20,018 nt of DNA from a virus. The notes beneath the pieces were generated by a model. That model saw only the letters and a program-made list of their open reading frames with translations. It ran no database searches and was not told the origin of the DNA. Within the stretch, counting starts at the first letter, position 1; each line of letters starts with the position of its first letter. Location of the stretch: the IMG/VR virus record IMGVR_UViG_3300031841_000134, positions 1-20,018 of that record. One strand, written 5' to 3'. Shown one piece after another: positions 9,635 to 19,665 of the stretch. The position numbers and the translations under genes are program-made.

Positions 9635-11068
9635 TTAGATCCAGTCTTTTAATTCTTCACCCATAATCTCACTAGCTATATTTACTTTCTTACGTAGTGC
9701 GACTACAATTTTATCATCTATAGTATCTTCTGCTATTAGATCTATGTATGTCATAGGGCTTTCCTGGCCTATACGGTCGATTCTAGCCTCAGACTGCTGT
9801 CTTTTCTCTAGATCATACCCGTTAGAATAATAAATCATTGTGCTGGCGGCTGTGAGCGTTATACCGTAGCCTCCTGTGGCTGTTGTACCAACTAAGAATC
9901 TTACAGGACTTTCTTTATCTTGAAATTTTTCTATATTACTTTGTCTTTGGTCTTGTGGTGTCAAGCCGTAATATGTAACGACCGAATTATCCCCATGCTC
10001 TTTTTTTATACGTTCTACGATTGTTTCTACATCGTACTGGTAATGTGCCCAAATAACAACCTTACCGTGTACCTCATCTAACAAGTCAGATAAATCATCT
10101 AGTCTATTATTTTTTATATCCTGTATTGTGCCATCATCTGCAGTAAAATGACCACAAGTAATTTGATGTAATCGCATAAGCTGAGTCATAACTGTAGCTG
10201 TAGTCATAAGTTTACCTTTAAATTGTGCTAAAGCTAATTGAGACATTTGTTTGTACGCATGCTCTTGTTCTTTTGTAAGTTTAACTGTTCTACGCATAAA
10301 TGTTTTTTTAGGTAGATCTAAACATTCGTCTTTTAATACTCTGTAAGAAAAAACTTTTAGCATATCTGTAAGCTCTGATAAATTACGATAGCCAACAACA
10401 ATTTGTACAGACCTGCCACCAAAATTAGCTGTCTTCATTACAGCATATCTAGTTCTAAAAGAATAATAAGAAGCGTGACCTAATAATTCTGGTGCTAGAA
10501 ACTCACACTGTTTATATAAATCTAGTGGTGATTTTGTAATAGGTGAACCTGTTAATATTCTTCTGTATTTAGCATGTGGACCCAATGTGCATATGTTCTT
10601 AGTTCTTTTAGCGTCTGGGTTTTTTATAGTTGTAGACTCATCAATAGCCATTATGGCGTTATGACAAGACAAAAACTTATACGCAAATTCTATACCTTTT
10701 TTTGTACTAAAGGCTTCTACATTCATAACTAGAACATGTAGATCTTGACCCGTTTCGAACAGTACATCTAGTTTCTTTTGTTGTTTTGCATTGATATTAG
10801 CCTGCCACAATACTGCCTTATGTTCAACATGATCCGGCATATGTGTAGGTAATTGGTCTTTATACCATGTGCCTACAACACCTTTTGGTGCTATAATTAA
10901 GGCACCGTTAATTTTACCTTTGTCATAAAGCATAGCAATATTATCTACTAACACTTTAGATTTACCTGTACCCATCTCCATAAAATAGGCAAAGTATTCT
11001 TTATCCCACGATCGTGCCAAAGCATTTAACTGATGCTGATAAGGCTTAGTCTTAAATTTGTAATGCAT
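9635..11068 (-). CDS. SNF2-type (SF2) DNA helicase/translocase
   Basis: A 477-aa superfamily 2 ATPase. Motifs in order: KPYQHQ (8-13), motif I MGTGKSK (32-38), motif II as DEST (143-146) in place of DEAH/DEGH, motif III LTGSP (172-176), and a C-terminal helicase domain ending in motif VI QQSEARIDRIGQ (424-435), whose R-IGQ ending is typical of the SNF2/Rad54-like group. The length covers both RecA-like domains with no extra nuclease or DNA-binding module. It would use ATP to translocate on duplex DNA, perhaps in replication or in removing bound proteins. It is the only minus-strand gene in the window, converging on the endolysin and diverging from the DNA-metabolism block. AGAAAG in front of its ATG is only a weak ribosome site. 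A possible promoter with TTGACA lies just upstream. Confidence 0.9.
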   Translation of the reverse strand: MHYKFKTKPYQHQLNALARSWDKEYFAYFMEMGTGKSKVLVDNIAMLYDKGKINGALIIAPKGVVGTWYKDQLPTHMPDHVEHKAVLWQANINAKQQKKLDVLFETGQDLHVLVMNVEAFSTKKGIEFAYKFLSCHNAIMAIDESTTIKNPDAKRTKNICTLGPHAKYRRILTGSPITKSPLDLYKQCEFLAPELLGHASYYSFRTRYAVMKTANFGGRSVQIVVGYRNLSELTDMLKVFSYRVLKDECLDLPKKTFMRRTVKLTKEQEHAYKQMSQLALAQFKGKLMTTATVMTQLMRLHQITCGHFTADDGTIQDIKNNRLDDLSDLLDEVHGKVVIWAHYQYDVETIVERIKKEHGDNSVVTYYGLTPQDQRQSNIEKFQDKESPVRFLVGTTATGGYGITLTAASTMIYYSNGYDLEKRQQSEARIDRIGQESPMTYIDLIAEDTIDDKIVVALRKKVNIASEIMGEELKDWI

Positions 11069-12058: not shown

Positions 12059-12820
12059 ATGAACCAAGTAGCAGAAAAAAAGACTGCAGGTCTTCCAAGC
12101 AATGTGTTTGAAGAAGATGCAGCAAAAGGTTTGGGTAATATAGGTCAACAAGATCTAGCCCTACCTTTCTTAAAAATCCTTGGACAGCTTTCACCAGAAG
12201 TTAACAAACGTGATGGTAAGTATGTCGAAGGTGCTGAACCAGGAATGATATACAATTCTGTGTCAGGCGACTTATACGATGGAGCGAAGGGCATAGATGT
12301 CATTCCTGCATATTATAAGTTAGAGTACGTAGAATGGAAAGATAGAGGAGAAGGTGCAGGCGGACCAGTAGCTGTACATGACTCTTCTTCTGACATTATG
12401 TCTCAAACAAAAGCAGATGCAAACTACAAAGACAGATTACCTAATGGTAATTATGTTGAGAAGACTGCATCACATTTTGTAATTATCACAGGAGATAGTC
12501 CAACGACTGCGTTGATATCTATGAAATCTACTCAATTAAAAATTAGTAGAAAATGGAATTCAATGATGTCGGGTATTAAACTAAAAGGTAAGAACGGGTT
12601 ATTTACACCGGCATCTTTTAGCCATATTTACAGACTAAAAACCACACAGATGTCTAACGACAAAGGTACATGGTTTGGTTGGGATGTAAGTAAGGCAGGA
12701 CCCATAACGGACACAGGTCTTTACCAGCAAGCAAAAACGTTTAGTGAAAGCATTTCTAAAGGAAGTGTAAAAGCTAAACATGGTGAAGAGAAACCGAAAG
12801 GGTCTCAATCTCACTTCTAA
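12059..12820 (+). CDS. replication-block protein, possible ssDNA-binding protein
   Basis: A 253-aa soluble protein with a helical N-terminus, then LALPFLKILGQLSPEVNKRD (33-52), a beta-rich middle (GMIYNSVSGDLYDG, GIDVIPAYYKLEYVEW) and ASFSHIYRLKTTQ toward the C-terminus, ending in a basic tail (KAKHGEEKPKGSQSHF). I associate this pattern with an uncharacterised family that sits in phage replication modules beside the coiled-coil protein encoded just before. Its size, strong ribosome site and place before the primase match what T7 does with gp2.5, so ssDNA binding or annealing is a reasonable guess. Against it, the acidic C-terminal tail typical of SSB proteins is missing. The spacing of two bases from the upstream gene implies co-translation. 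The function call is weak. Confidence 0.72.
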   Translation: MNQVAEKKTAGLPSNVFEEDAAKGLGNIGQQDLALPFLKILGQLSPEVNKRDGKYVEGAEPGMIYNSVSGDLYDGAKGIDVIPAYYKLEYVEWKDRGEGAGGPVAVHDSSSDIMSQTKADANYKDRLPNGNYVEKTASHFVIITGDSPTTALISMKSTQLKISRKWNSMMSGIKLKGKNGLFTPASFSHIYRLKTTQMSNDKGTWFGWDVSKAGPITDTGLYQQAKTFSESISKGSVKAKHGEEKPKGSQSHF

Positions 12821-12821
12821 G

Positions 12822-12875
12822 TTCCTTAATTGGAATCATGCATGAGTAGGCCGCCTGGGAGACTGCGCGGCCTAC
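12822..12875 (+). other. structured intergenic element of three abutting dyads
   Basis: Between the gene ending at 12820 and the primase start at 12888 lie three back-to-back inverted repeats: TTCC/GGAA around six bases (12822-12835), the perfect 10-base palindrome TCATGCATGA (12836-12845), and a perfect 9-bp stem GTAGGCCGC/GCGGCCTAC with a 12-base loop (12846-12854 and 12867-12875). The last stem is GC-rich in an AT-rich genome. No T run follows, so it is not an ordinary intrinsic terminator. It may be a structured leader of the primase mRNA, an RNA processing site, a small RNA or a replication signal. I could not match it to a known RNA class. Confidence 0.65.
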
Positions 12876-12887
12876 ACACAGATAATT

Positions 12888-14516
12888 ATGAATGGATATG
12901 TAAAAATATTTAATGGCTATAGGCATGCGTATGGTATCGCAGATTGGAGCAACGCTACCGTAGACCCAGAAAGCGGAAAGAAAAAACCAGTCTACAGATG
13001 GACTTATGAAGAGTTCACTGATCAAATTTATCAAGACCATTTAACAGGTGAGAAATCTGTTGGTGCACAGCCTACAAATGAAAACGGTGATGCTAAGTTT
13101 GGTGTTATTGATATTGACCCTAAAGAGTACGAAGGCTTTAACAAACAATTTTATCTAGAAACAATACAAAAATACGATCTACCTCTTATACCTATAGAAT
13201 CTAAAAGTGGTGGCTTACATTTATATTTATTTATGGCAGAGTTTGTGCCATCTACATTAGTTGTATCGTTCTTAAGTAATCTATTACCTTTATTTAATCT
13301 AAAACCTGACTGTGAAATCTTTCCTAAGCAGACACAACTGACAAAGGATCCGGAAACAGGGATATTAAAACCAGGACAGTTTATTAATCTACCATATTTT
13401 GAAAGCAAGAAACGTAGAGCTATCAATATGGATGGCACATTCTTTACACTAGAACAATTTATAAAAGTAGCAGAAGCCAATCTAACTACAGCAGAAGATT
13501 TAAAAAGAATTACAGATGAGATGGAATCTAAATCTATGGAAGGTGTTGACGAAGAGTTTACAGAAGGTCCACCTTGTTTAGCTTTACTATCTAAAGTTAC
13601 AAATAAGACTGGCTTTGATGGCAAAGATAGATTTATGTACAACTATCATGTCTTTGTAAAGATGAAGTATCCTGATAGCTGGCAACAGAAAGTTAAGAAC
13701 GCACCTGTAAAATATTTTGAGACTGTGCATGCAAATGCGTGGGATCAACAAACACTAAACGCAAAACTTAGATCATGGAACAAATCAGAGAAAGGTTATA
13801 CATGTACACAGAGTCCTATCAGTGAGTATTGTAAGAAAGGTATATGCGTAAAGAAAAAGTTTGGTGTACTTGCCGGATCTAAAGGATCTTATCCTGTACT
13901 AACTAACCTAAGAAAAATAGACATTGATCCAGATCCAGAATATGAATTTGATGTAACTAGACCAGATGGTATTGGTAAGGCGACAGTGCATTGTAAGACT
14001 GTAGAACATGTTACAGATCAGCGAAAGAGACGGAATGCTATCACAAAACATGCAGGATTTCCACCACCAATTATTAAAGGTCAAGAAGATCAAACTGTAT
14101 TAGAAGCATTATTTAAAACACAAAAAACAATTAATCCTCCTATCGGTACATCACCTAAAGAAAAACTACACGACTTATTACATGCAAAAATTAACGGACC
14201 TAAAGCTATGAATGATGCCAGCTTTAAATCAGGTACAGTCCTAATAGAAGAAGGCTATGCTTATTTTAAATTTGATAAATTCTACGACAGACTAAAAGCA
14301 AAGAATTGGAAACACGGTGAAGATAAGACAGGTGTTATGATGAGAAAGACATACAAAGAATGTGACATACAATTTTTAGATCAAAAAAGATTTCCTGCAA
14401 AAGAAAAAGGTAAATACAATACACCTACAAAGAATGTAGTAATGATAAACATAGAACAGTTTGAAGAAGTACCTATACACCATACAAAATTAAAACATGA
14501 AACGGAGATAATGTAA
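12888..14516 (+). CDS. archaeo-eukaryotic-type (AEP) DNA primase
   Basis: A 542-aa protein with the three AEP active-site motifs: FGVIDID (Asp75, Asp77; metal binding), SKSGGLHLY (Ser107 to His111; nucleotide binding) and DCEIFPKQ (acidic residue 141 or 143), followed by GQFINLPYF. It would make primers for the family A polymerase encoded downstream, unlike T7, whose gp4 uses a TOPRIM primase. A helical domain follows with four cysteines (Cys230 in GPPCLALL; Cys306, Cys315 and Cys320 in YTCTQSPISEYCKKGIC) that could hold a zinc or Fe-S centre as in the PriL-type large subunit. The C-terminal third (about 360-542) is Lys-rich and unrecognised. The ATG has no Shine-Dalgarno and lies 12 bases after a strong hairpin, so translation may be controlled by that structure. 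The stop overlaps the next start as TAATG. Confidence 0.85.
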   Translation: MNGYVKIFNGYRHAYGIADWSNATVDPESGKKKPVYRWTYEEFTDQIYQDHLTGEKSVGAQPTNENGDAKFGVIDIDPKEYEGFNKQFYLETIQKYDLPLIPIESKSGGLHLYLFMAEFVPSTLVVSFLSNLLPLFNLKPDCEIFPKQTQLTKDPETGILKPGQFINLPYFESKKRRAINMDGTFFTLEQFIKVAEANLTTAEDLKRITDEMESKSMEGVDEEFTEGPPCLALLSKVTNKTGFDGKDRFMYNYHVFVKMKYPDSWQQKVKNAPVKYFETVHANAWDQQTLNAKLRSWNKSEKGYTCTQSPISEYCKKGICVKKKFGVLAGSKGSYPVLTNLRKIDIDPDPEYEFDVTRPDGIGKATVHCKTVEHVTDQRKRRNAITKHAGFPPPIIKGQEDQTVLEALFKTQKTINPPIGTSPKEKLHDLLHAKINGPKAMNDASFKSGTVLIEEGYAYFKFDKFYDRLKAKNWKHGEDKTGVMMRKTYKECDIQFLDQKRFPAKEKGKYNTPTKNVVMINIEQFEEVPIHHTKLKHETEIM

Positions 14517-15481
14517 TGAAAAAAATGGGACCGCCTGAAAAAGATCCAAGTATGCTAGATCCTCAGTATTTAAAATATAAATCTAGCTATCTAAATTATT
14601 ATAAAAAAAATTATGCAAAAATTAAACAAAAAGCAAAAGATAGAAGATTAGAATTTAATAAAACACTTCCTTCTCTTAATCTTATTTGTACATATTGCAA
14701 TAAACCTTTTATTCTACCAGGAGTGAAAGAGAACGGACATAAACAAAAACCGGTTAAACATTGCAGTTATCTTTGTCAGAAAAGAGAAGAGCGACTTAGA
14801 AAATTGTGGATACCCAAATGGTTATATAATTTTTATTTAGAAAAAAAATTATTTAGAATTGTTACAGGTTTTAAAAATTCAAAATATAGTATGTTTTCAT
14901 GGAATAGACGTTGGAGAATATTAGGAAATCATAATTATACTTTTAAAATATTTTTTGCAGGGGTTTATTGGAAAAGACACGGTTGGTTTTGGAACCCTAA
15001 ATGTTTTTGGAGAAAAAAATTTAAATGGTTAGATAATTATAAAAGAAAAAAGTCAAAAGAAAATAGAATTAATTATGTTAAAATTTATTCAAAAAGTAAA
15101 AAACATAAACAATGGGTAATAGATTGGCAAAAACGACAATCTAAAAATTCAAACTTTAAAATAAGAAGGGCTTTAAGAGTTTCCATAGTAGGAGCACTTA
15201 AAAGACAAGGAGTAAGAAAACATCGAAAAACAGAAGAGCTTCTTGGAACTAGCAAAGTAAATGCAAGAAAACATATAGAATCTTTATTTAAATCTGGAAT
15301 GACATGGGAAAATCATGGTTTAGGTTGGGACAAGTGGCATATAGATCATATAATACCTTGTGCTGCTTTTGATTTAAAATGTCCAGTCCAACAACTAGCG
15401 TGCTGTCATTACAAAAATTTACAACCACTTTGGCAAGAAGATAATTATAAAAAAAGAGATAAATTATATGAAAACAATTAG
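14516..15481 (+). CDS. HNH homing endonuclease with N-terminal zinc ribbon
   Basis: A 321-aa very basic protein. Near the N-terminus four cysteines (Cys58, Cys61, Cys83, Cys87) form a CxxC...CxxxC zinc site. The middle is extremely Lys/Arg/Trp/Phe-rich and likely binds DNA. The C-terminal HNH nuclease has WHIDHIIP (His275, Asp277, His278), HYKNLQPLW (His298, Asn301) and DNYKKRDK (Asn310). Freestanding HNH enzymes of this type cut phage DNA at a target and are copied into it. Placement between primase and helicase genes is typical, as such elements settle in conserved replication genes. The composition looks even more AT-rich than its neighbours. It fits without disrupting either flanking gene: TAATG at its start and a 14-base overlap at its end. 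Confidence 0.9.
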   Translation: MKKMGPPEKDPSMLDPQYLKYKSSYLNYYKKNYAKIKQKAKDRRLEFNKTLPSLNLICTYCNKPFILPGVKENGHKQKPVKHCSYLCQKREERLRKLWIPKWLYNFYLEKKLFRIVTGFKNSKYSMFSWNRRWRILGNHNYTFKIFFAGVYWKRHGWFWNPKCFWRKKFKWLDNYKRKKSKENRINYVKIYSKSKKHKQWVIDWQKRQSKNSNFKIRRALRVSIVGALKRQGVRKHRKTEELLGTSKVNARKHIESLFKSGMTWENHGLGWDKWHIDHIIPCAAFDLKCPVQQLACCHYKNLQPLWQEDNYKKRDKLYENN

Positions 15482-19014: not shown

Positions 19015-19665
19015 ATGGCTTACTTAAATGCAAACATTCCTGTAACATATGCTCAAATTAGGAGAGAATATTTATATGACCTTAAAAAACATCATGGTGA
19101 AGTTGAAGACTGCATTGTGTTTGGTATTACGGCTATTACTGGCCGTCCCATACTTTTTCATTGTATTATGGAAAATGGAGCTGTCTTCTATCGTCTACCG
19201 ATATCTGCATTTATTCAAAGAGGCTTTGATCCAAAGAACGTTCCTAAACGTAGACTTGATGAGTTGGAGCTTTGGAATTCTTTCAGTTATTATCCTGCTG
19301 TTACTAGTTGGGATATCTTAGACGGACAATCTGGCAAATACATAGGTAAAGATAAAAAATGGCACAGTGGTGCTTATTTATTTACGGTTGATTTTGCACA
19401 CCCAGAGAGTAATATAGTAGATACAGATCATTCTGAAATTCCGCACGAACATAAGTGCGCACACATACTTGCCTTAGATGATGGTAATTATGCGGCACAG
19501 CCAAACAACAGACTAATATGGGACATACCATCTTTTACAGTTAAAGATGAAATACCAGATTGGAAGGTGCAGACATCAGAGTGGAATGTAGAAGACACAC
19601 GTAAATGGAAGACCGAAGATACGGATAACTTCTTTTACGAAATTGAGGAGAAAAAAAATGATTAA
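19015..19665 (+). CDS. conserved phage protein of unknown function, 216 aa
   Basis: A 216-aa soluble protein starting two bases after the polymerase stop. The N-terminal half has YAQIRREYLYDLKKHHGEVE followed by DCIVFGITAITGRPILFHCI, then LPISAFI; the middle holds ELWNSFSYYPAVT and AYLFTVDFAHPES. I know this arrangement from uncharacterised proteins of marine T7-like phages, often near the polymerase gene, but no function. The C-terminus (about 185-216) has a Trp/Asp/Glu repeat-like pattern (WNVEDTRKWKTEDTDNFFYE) that reads as an acidic binding tail. No catalytic motif is obvious. It overlaps the next small gene by eight bases. Confidence 0.85.
   Translation: MAYLNANIPVTYAQIRREYLYDLKKHHGEVEDCIVFGITAITGRPILFHCIMENGAVFYRLPISAFIQRGFDPKNVPKRRLDELELWNSFSYYPAVTSWDILDGQSGKYIGKDKKWHSGAYLFTVDFAHPESNIVDTDHSEIPHEHKCAHILALDDGNYAAQPNNRLIWDIPSFTVKDEIPDWKVQTSEWNVEDTRKWKTEDTDNFFYEIEEKKND
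19645..19650 (+). promoter_or_regulatory. strong Shine-Dalgarno for the small gene at 19658
   Basis: GAGGAG lies seven bases before ATG 19658. It is among the best ribosome sites in the window and is a main reason to accept the following 33-codon frame as a gene. Confidence 0.65.

Follow-up and report, generated by a model that had tools for sequence, protein, structure and literature searches.

Between a gp34-like gene and a primase gene, a virus record of 20,018 bases (the window, by which we mean the whole stretch of DNA analyzed) has a gap of 67 bases. A preliminary description placed three dyads in this gap and took them for a selected element. Does the gap hold a selected RNA structure and, if so, what does that structure do for the genes on either side?

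Structure and covariation of the gap hairpin

We found the three dyads, a TTCC/GGAA repeat, a perfect palindrome, and a GC-rich stem, where they had been described, and the gap length is exact (Table 1). The loop of 12 bases drawn on the GC-rich stem is in the right position, but it is not unstructured. It contains a 3x3 internal loop, a G.U and a G-C pair, and a GAGA tetraloop. The GC-rich stem is far above chance for the window sequence, in which its pattern occurs once, against 0 of 100 shuffles. The folding energy of the gap region is -27.4 kcal/mol (z = -2.96), and 1 of 200 shuffles was equally good.

Table 1. Features in and beside the gp34-primase gap of the window
Feature	Position	Strand	Description
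gp34 homolog	12059..12820	+	PHROG_2402 / PF23977; gene 5' of the hairpin; stop TAA at 12818-12820
H1	12818..12835	+	stop TAA, then small hairpin TTCC-TTAATT-GGAA (12822-12835; arms 12822-12825 and 12832-12835)
Perfect palindrome	12836..12845	.	TCATGCATGA; adjoins the 5' side of the main hairpin
H2, main RNA hairpin	12846..12875	+	stem GTAGGCCGC (12846-12854) / GCGGCCTAC (12867-12875), enclosing CTGGGAGACTGC
Apical GGGAGACU	12857..12864	+	G.U pair, G-C pair, and GAGA (GNRA-type) tetraloop
Spacer	12876..12887	+	12 nt, A+T-rich; hairpin foot to primase start; T-run lacking, Shine-Dalgarno weak or absent
Primase (AEP, PHROG_21866)	12888..14516	+	gene 3' of the hairpin; ATG at 12888

The hairpin lacks a T-run on its 3' side, as had been noted, and a scan of the window gave 0 terminator-like sites within 12600-13100. 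The missing Shine-Dalgarno sequence had also been pointed out. The signal is indeed weak or absent here, but this is unremarkable, as an SD-like tetramer is missing from 13 of the window's 20 genes; in close relatives the spot before the primase reads AGGA. A promoter scan around the gap was negative, and the TATAAT-like strings that overlap stop codons are confined to some clades, so we rejected a promoter in the gap. No GC-skew switch was found at the hairpin site. A search of the gap region against Rfam gave no match (best E value, 2.1, to unrelated families).

A protein search with the window primase returned 80 viral loci. In all 80, a hairpin lies directly 5' of the primase, with a variable stem and a top that reads GGGAGACT. 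In the Pelagibacter phage HTVC027P, with a primase of only 40% identity, the equivalent place, at 1,831-1,860 of its record, reads ACGGCGC-TGAA-GGGAGACT-GGAG-GCGCCGT, and its relatives L367, L396, L400, and L401 have GCGAGAGT, in which the pair closing the GAGA loop is exchanged. We aligned 48 distinct, thinned phage hairpins and compared them with shuffles, which ignore relatedness among the phages: 97.9% of stem cells were paired (68.7 shuffled), 123 cells were changed on both sides (38.8 shuffled), and the covariation score was 0.722 (0.191 shuffled). When the partner was slid by 1 to 3 columns, covariation was 0.05 to 0.17. Changes on both sides were found at all eight lower-stem pairs and at the pair that closes the tetraloop, and RNAalifold recovered the same structure unaided. 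The replaced stem types GGCC, GGCG, and GGGC precede primases that are roughly 25 to 40% identical to each other, which argues that the stem changes were not one event.

The eight-pair stem has G.U in 26 cells of the alignment and A.C in 1. Tolerance of G.U but not of A.C indicates that the coding (mRNA) strand folds. The G.U pair and the GAGA loop are invariant in 48 of 48 hairpins, and the tetraloop closing pair is G-C in 44 and C-G in 4; this is a GNRA-capped hairpin, with a GAGA tetraloop on a co-varying closing pair. The 3x3 loop between stem and cap is symmetric. Except in the window's subgroup, it mostly sets purine against purine, and A.G is swapped for G.A among relatives; the window itself reads CCU/GCG. 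A model built from the phage hairpins alone (R1) gave a single match on the window, the main hairpin (34.9 bits; E = 3e-6).

These data strongly support the claim of a selected element: the relatives, checked for loss of the stem or of compensatory changes, have a conserved stem with many such changes, and the check did not refute the claim. The term "structured leader" was right as anatomy. We concluded that the main hairpin is real, selected, and RNA-level, an intercistronic, cis-acting hairpin with an unusual shared cap. With 86 distinct hairpin sequences collected, it is an apparently undescribed structured RNA that is widespread in marine phages.

The two smaller dyads were also compared among relatives. 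Hairpins of the H1 type, directly 3' of the stop codon and differing in sequence, have at least 5 pairs in 14 of 18 representatives, against 6.5 expected, which gives moderate support for recurrence of a small post-stop hairpin. Palindromes of at least 8 bp were found in the 29-base stretch 5' of the hairpin in 18 of 28 representatives, with 3.1 expected and a maximum of 9 in 2,000 shuffles. Recurring examples are CATGCATG, TGTGCACA, TGTGCGCACA, CTTGCAAG, GTTGCAAC, and TGTTATAACA, and those of the relatives are centered on TGCA or TTATAA. Both tests are weaker than that of the main hairpin because the representatives are not fully independent.

Gene setting of the hairpin

The order gp32-like gene, gp33-like gene, gp34-like gene, primase, and helicase is common to the retrieved stretches of R5C (a roseophage), Pan1, DSL-LC04, 023Pt_psg01, and HTVC027P, to which the gene-order comparison was limited. 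Among 53 gp34 representatives, we found a strong hairpin of some sequence in the gp34-primase gap of 36, where 2.3 were expected; wrongly chosen gene starts account for some of the misses. R5C, Pan1, DSL-LC04, and 023Pt_psg01 also have a strong hairpin in the gap. In this wider family GNRA and UUCG loops are common, and T-runs follow some of the hairpins, as in intrinsic terminators. Since the hairpin of the wider family is conserved by position while its loops differ, the GGGAGACU cap is a clade-specific form. In the capped clade, the foot of the hairpin is mostly 5 to 17 nt from the AUG. There is essentially one copy per phage genome, and in the window's phage family it is always in the gp34-primase gap. 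The data therefore do not support a regulon in which one phage genome would contain several copies.

Three loci (L082, L121, and L168) separate the hairpin from the primase. Their upstream gene clearly encodes a gp34 homolog, about 62 to 64% identical to that of the window, and the hairpin is kept, but no similarity between the downstream protein and the AEP primase could be detected. The hairpin thus follows the end of gp34 or the locus, not the primase, which argues against autoregulation by the primase. The replacement protein, which lies between gp34 and the helicase, has 492 to 496 amino acids and no Pfam match; it is possibly an unrecognized primase.

The gp34 protein of the window matches PHROG_2402 (E = 4e-70) and Pfam PF23977 (Pam3_Gp34; E = 3e-72), families to which no function is assigned. 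Many gp34 homologs end in DIPF or DVPF (pattern D[DE][IV]PF), and bacterial single-strand DNA-binding (SSB) proteins have tails that resemble these. The AlphaFold (AF2) model of gp34 has a pLDDT of 85. Its Foldseek matches were weak and nonsignificant; several of the top ones have SSB or RPA folds, and there were weak OB-fold matches. A sequence search of gp34 against the PDB found none. The tails of many homologs, the replication cluster, and the weak OB-fold matches together suggest that gp34 is likely a phage SSB. A large family of phage proteins, so far without an assigned function, would thereby gain a suggested identity.

The primase was assigned by PHROG_21866 (E = 5e-109) and by the Pfam AEP-TOTE family (E = 8e-12). 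Between it and a UvrD helicase lies an open reading frame (14516-15481) whose only PHROG match is weak and to a family of unknown function. By eye, its C terminus is HNH-like (DHIIP..NLQPLW..N..K), and it may be a homing endonuclease. Elsewhere in the window, an SNF2-type helicase gene (9635-11068) is encoded on the minus strand in a stretch of plus-strand genes, with a local inversion of GC skew over the gene. A conserved protein of 216 amino acids (19015-19665) is labeled "ferredoxin" in PHROGs (phrog_3704) and has no Pfam match; its syntenic counterpart in HTVC027P, 3' of PolA, is annotated PurM. Both names look doubtful, given the lack of a Pfam match.

Possible roles between the two cistrons

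Intercistronic hairpins that stabilize or process RNA are found in phage and bacterial operons between cistrons needed in different amounts. We propose that the gap hairpin is such a boundary and that it separates the expression of gp34 from that of the primase; we put the probability of this reading, which is drawn from sequence comparison, at about 0.48. As a cis-acting hairpin in a polycistronic message, it would protect or define the 3' end of the gp34 message and partly uncouple this message from that of the primase. The two genes would then be expressed at different levels, with gp34 needed in bulk and the primase in small amounts. In distant relatives the gap often contains a terminator-like hairpin, and in some relatives transcription may terminate there. 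Since the T-run is gone in the window's clade, the hairpin there would not be an intrinsic terminator but would act on message processing and stability, as well as on the primase start close by. We infer the effect on the expression ratio and the reading of the near-invariant GAGA cap by an RNA-binding factor. An RNase processing site had been among the first proposals; a role related to RNases, in processing or in end protection, is compatible with the data and is part of this explanation.

The boundary most simply explains why a strong hairpin, whatever its sequence, is nearly always present in the gap, after a gene probably needed in bulk and before one needed in small amounts. It is also supported by the covariation with its mRNA-strand bias, the conserved position in the gap, the persistence of the hairpin when the downstream gene is replaced, the single copy per genome, and the SSB-like tails of the gp34 homologs. 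The hairpin resembles known stabilizing and processing hairpins in its intercistronic position, its strength, and the sequence drift in the wider family. It differs from them in that the cap in the window's clade is conserved more strongly than such a role requires: for stability alone, a G.U pair and a GAGA loop fixed in 48 of 48 copies would be unnecessary. Also against the boundary, the window copy has no T-run, the SSB identity of gp34 is nonsignificant by fold search, and the window gp34 itself ends in SQSHF, not DIPF.

The main, serious rival of the boundary is a translational operator. According to this model, gp34 (likelier than the primase) or a host RNA-binding protein would bind the GAGA-capped hairpin and, as at the gene 43 operator of T4, control how ribosomes reach the primase start, which lies 12 nt 3' of the hairpin. 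As judged from the sequences, we consider this possible but less probable than a boundary. A cap that stays nearly invariant while the stem drifts is what an operator predicts, and the short distance from hairpin foot to AUG in the capped clade fits it, as does the single-copy element with this cap in host SAR11-like genomes. In contrast, the hairpin before an unrelated protein in L082, L121, and L168 speaks against autocontrol by the primase, and the hairpins of distant relatives carry other loops. In the predicted fold of the window, the palindrome pairs with the start codon and would sequester it, but by eye this pairing was not kept in relatives, and we rejected it.

In the gene 43 operators of T4 and RB69, the top is conserved and the stem varies between phages (PMC3014915). 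The gap hairpin is similar in that it lies before a replication gene, near its start, with a conserved top and a variable stem. It differs in its distance from the start, with its foot about 12 nt from the AUG while the T4 operator is about 40 bases upstream, and in its cap, which is GAGA and not UAAC. Moreover, a T4-type operator is bound by the protein whose gene it precedes, and the two should therefore stay together, whereas the hairpin here survives replacement of the downstream gene (L082, L121, and L168), and no protein is known to bind it.

An attenuating or relict intrinsic terminator, which would stop RNA polymerase partially across the family and be degenerate or Rho/Nus-assisted in the window, appears improbable to us. 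The hairpin resembles terminators and attenuators as a strong, GC-rich, intercistronic structure, and there is a T-run 3' of it in L168 (TTTTT), L542, L543, L567, L569, and L558; a T-run is also usual in the host element that bears this cap. In contrast, the window's clade has an almost fixed cap, and neither the window, nor its group-2 relatives, nor HTVC027P has a clear T-run.

An element acting as DNA, such as a replication origin, a single-strand initiation hairpin, or an operator for a DNA-binding protein, is highly improbable. The conserved palindrome next to the hairpin and the replication gene cluster would suit it, but the 26 G.U cells against 1 A.C fit RNA of the coding strand, while leaving room for a single-stranded DNA hairpin of that strand, and there is no GC-skew switch. 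The early suggestion that the AEP primase uses the site as an origin or primer signal is disfavored because the mRNA strand folds and the hairpin stays when that primase is replaced. Least likely of all is a riboswitch or an independent small RNA, both raised at first on finding structured RNA in a noncoding gap: the gap has one short capped hairpin and a minor one, simple and without a junction or pocket, Rfam gave no match, which leaves the riboswitch unsupported, and a stable small RNA, which keeps a slight chance, has no promoter or terminator in its support.

The same cap in SAR11-like genomes and in other phages

We found matches to R1 in 14 of 60 SAR11-like genomes of one family, a label that here means about 1 Mb, 24 to 33% GC, and the same class as a (alphaproteobacterial) Limimaricola genome. 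The exact sequence GGAGGGAGACTGAA occurs once each in 71 of 197 genomes of the order, and its reversed control in 1 genome. A 91-position model of this host element (R2) matched 61 of 147 genomes of the order, almost all in single copy. The element (seen in L605, L609-L621, and L682-L711) is unannotated and intergenic, often 3' of a phosphomannomutase-like or tRNA-Ser gene. It has a conserved 5' block (CAACTA..AAGWGT..GAATC), followed by a co-varying hairpin with a GGA-GGGAGACU-GAA top and usually by a T-run. A comparison of the element with Rfam gave no convincing match.

The host and phage hairpins both have the GGGAGACU cap, fixed on a stem that co-varies. They share the 14 nt GGAGGGAGACUGAA, which some phage copies (e.g., L342 and L110) have unchanged at their top, whereas the 5' block of the host element is not evident in the phage copies. 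R2 gave no match on the window, and on related phage hairpins it gave only weak matches (best E = 4e-4) that are explained by the hairpin. We rejected the idea that GGGAGACT is the usual loop of SAR11 terminators, as it was found in 1 of 308 terminator-like hairpins of one whole genome. Meyer et al. (2009) described a SAR11 motif beside rhtB, a single bulged hairpin with a U-tract in about half of its copies (PMC2704228). Like the host element, it is a single hairpin with a conserved loop and a U-tract in SAR11; its genomic neighbors differ, in a comparison by description, since the text contains no motif sequence.

The capped hairpin may be a recognition motif for a SAR11-type host RNA-binding factor, copied by pelagiphages for the gp34-primase boundary and used by the host in an undescribed small RNA or 3' element. 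We regard this reading as doubtful. The cap that phage and host RNAs share points to a possible RNA-binding factor in certain marine bacteria that rank among the most abundant. For HTVC027P, an isolated phage, the SAR11 host is known, and a data set of RNA-seq during its infection of HTCC1062 exists (PMC12753301; PRJNA1253180), so the role of the hairpin is testable now.

Strong stems were found at 54 of 95 places for the real octamer, a figure that includes many primase-leader copies, and at 9 of 114 places for a permuted octamer. A scan of genome contigs for GGCC..GGGAGACT..GGCC gave mostly scattered high-GC or terminator matches. In other phages, GGGAGACT-capped hairpins lie just 5' of the start codons of unrelated genes (L108/L136 and L187) or have T-runs, as in terminators (L120/L129 and L134). 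R1 scored 26 to 37 bits on L108/L136, L187, and L120/L129.
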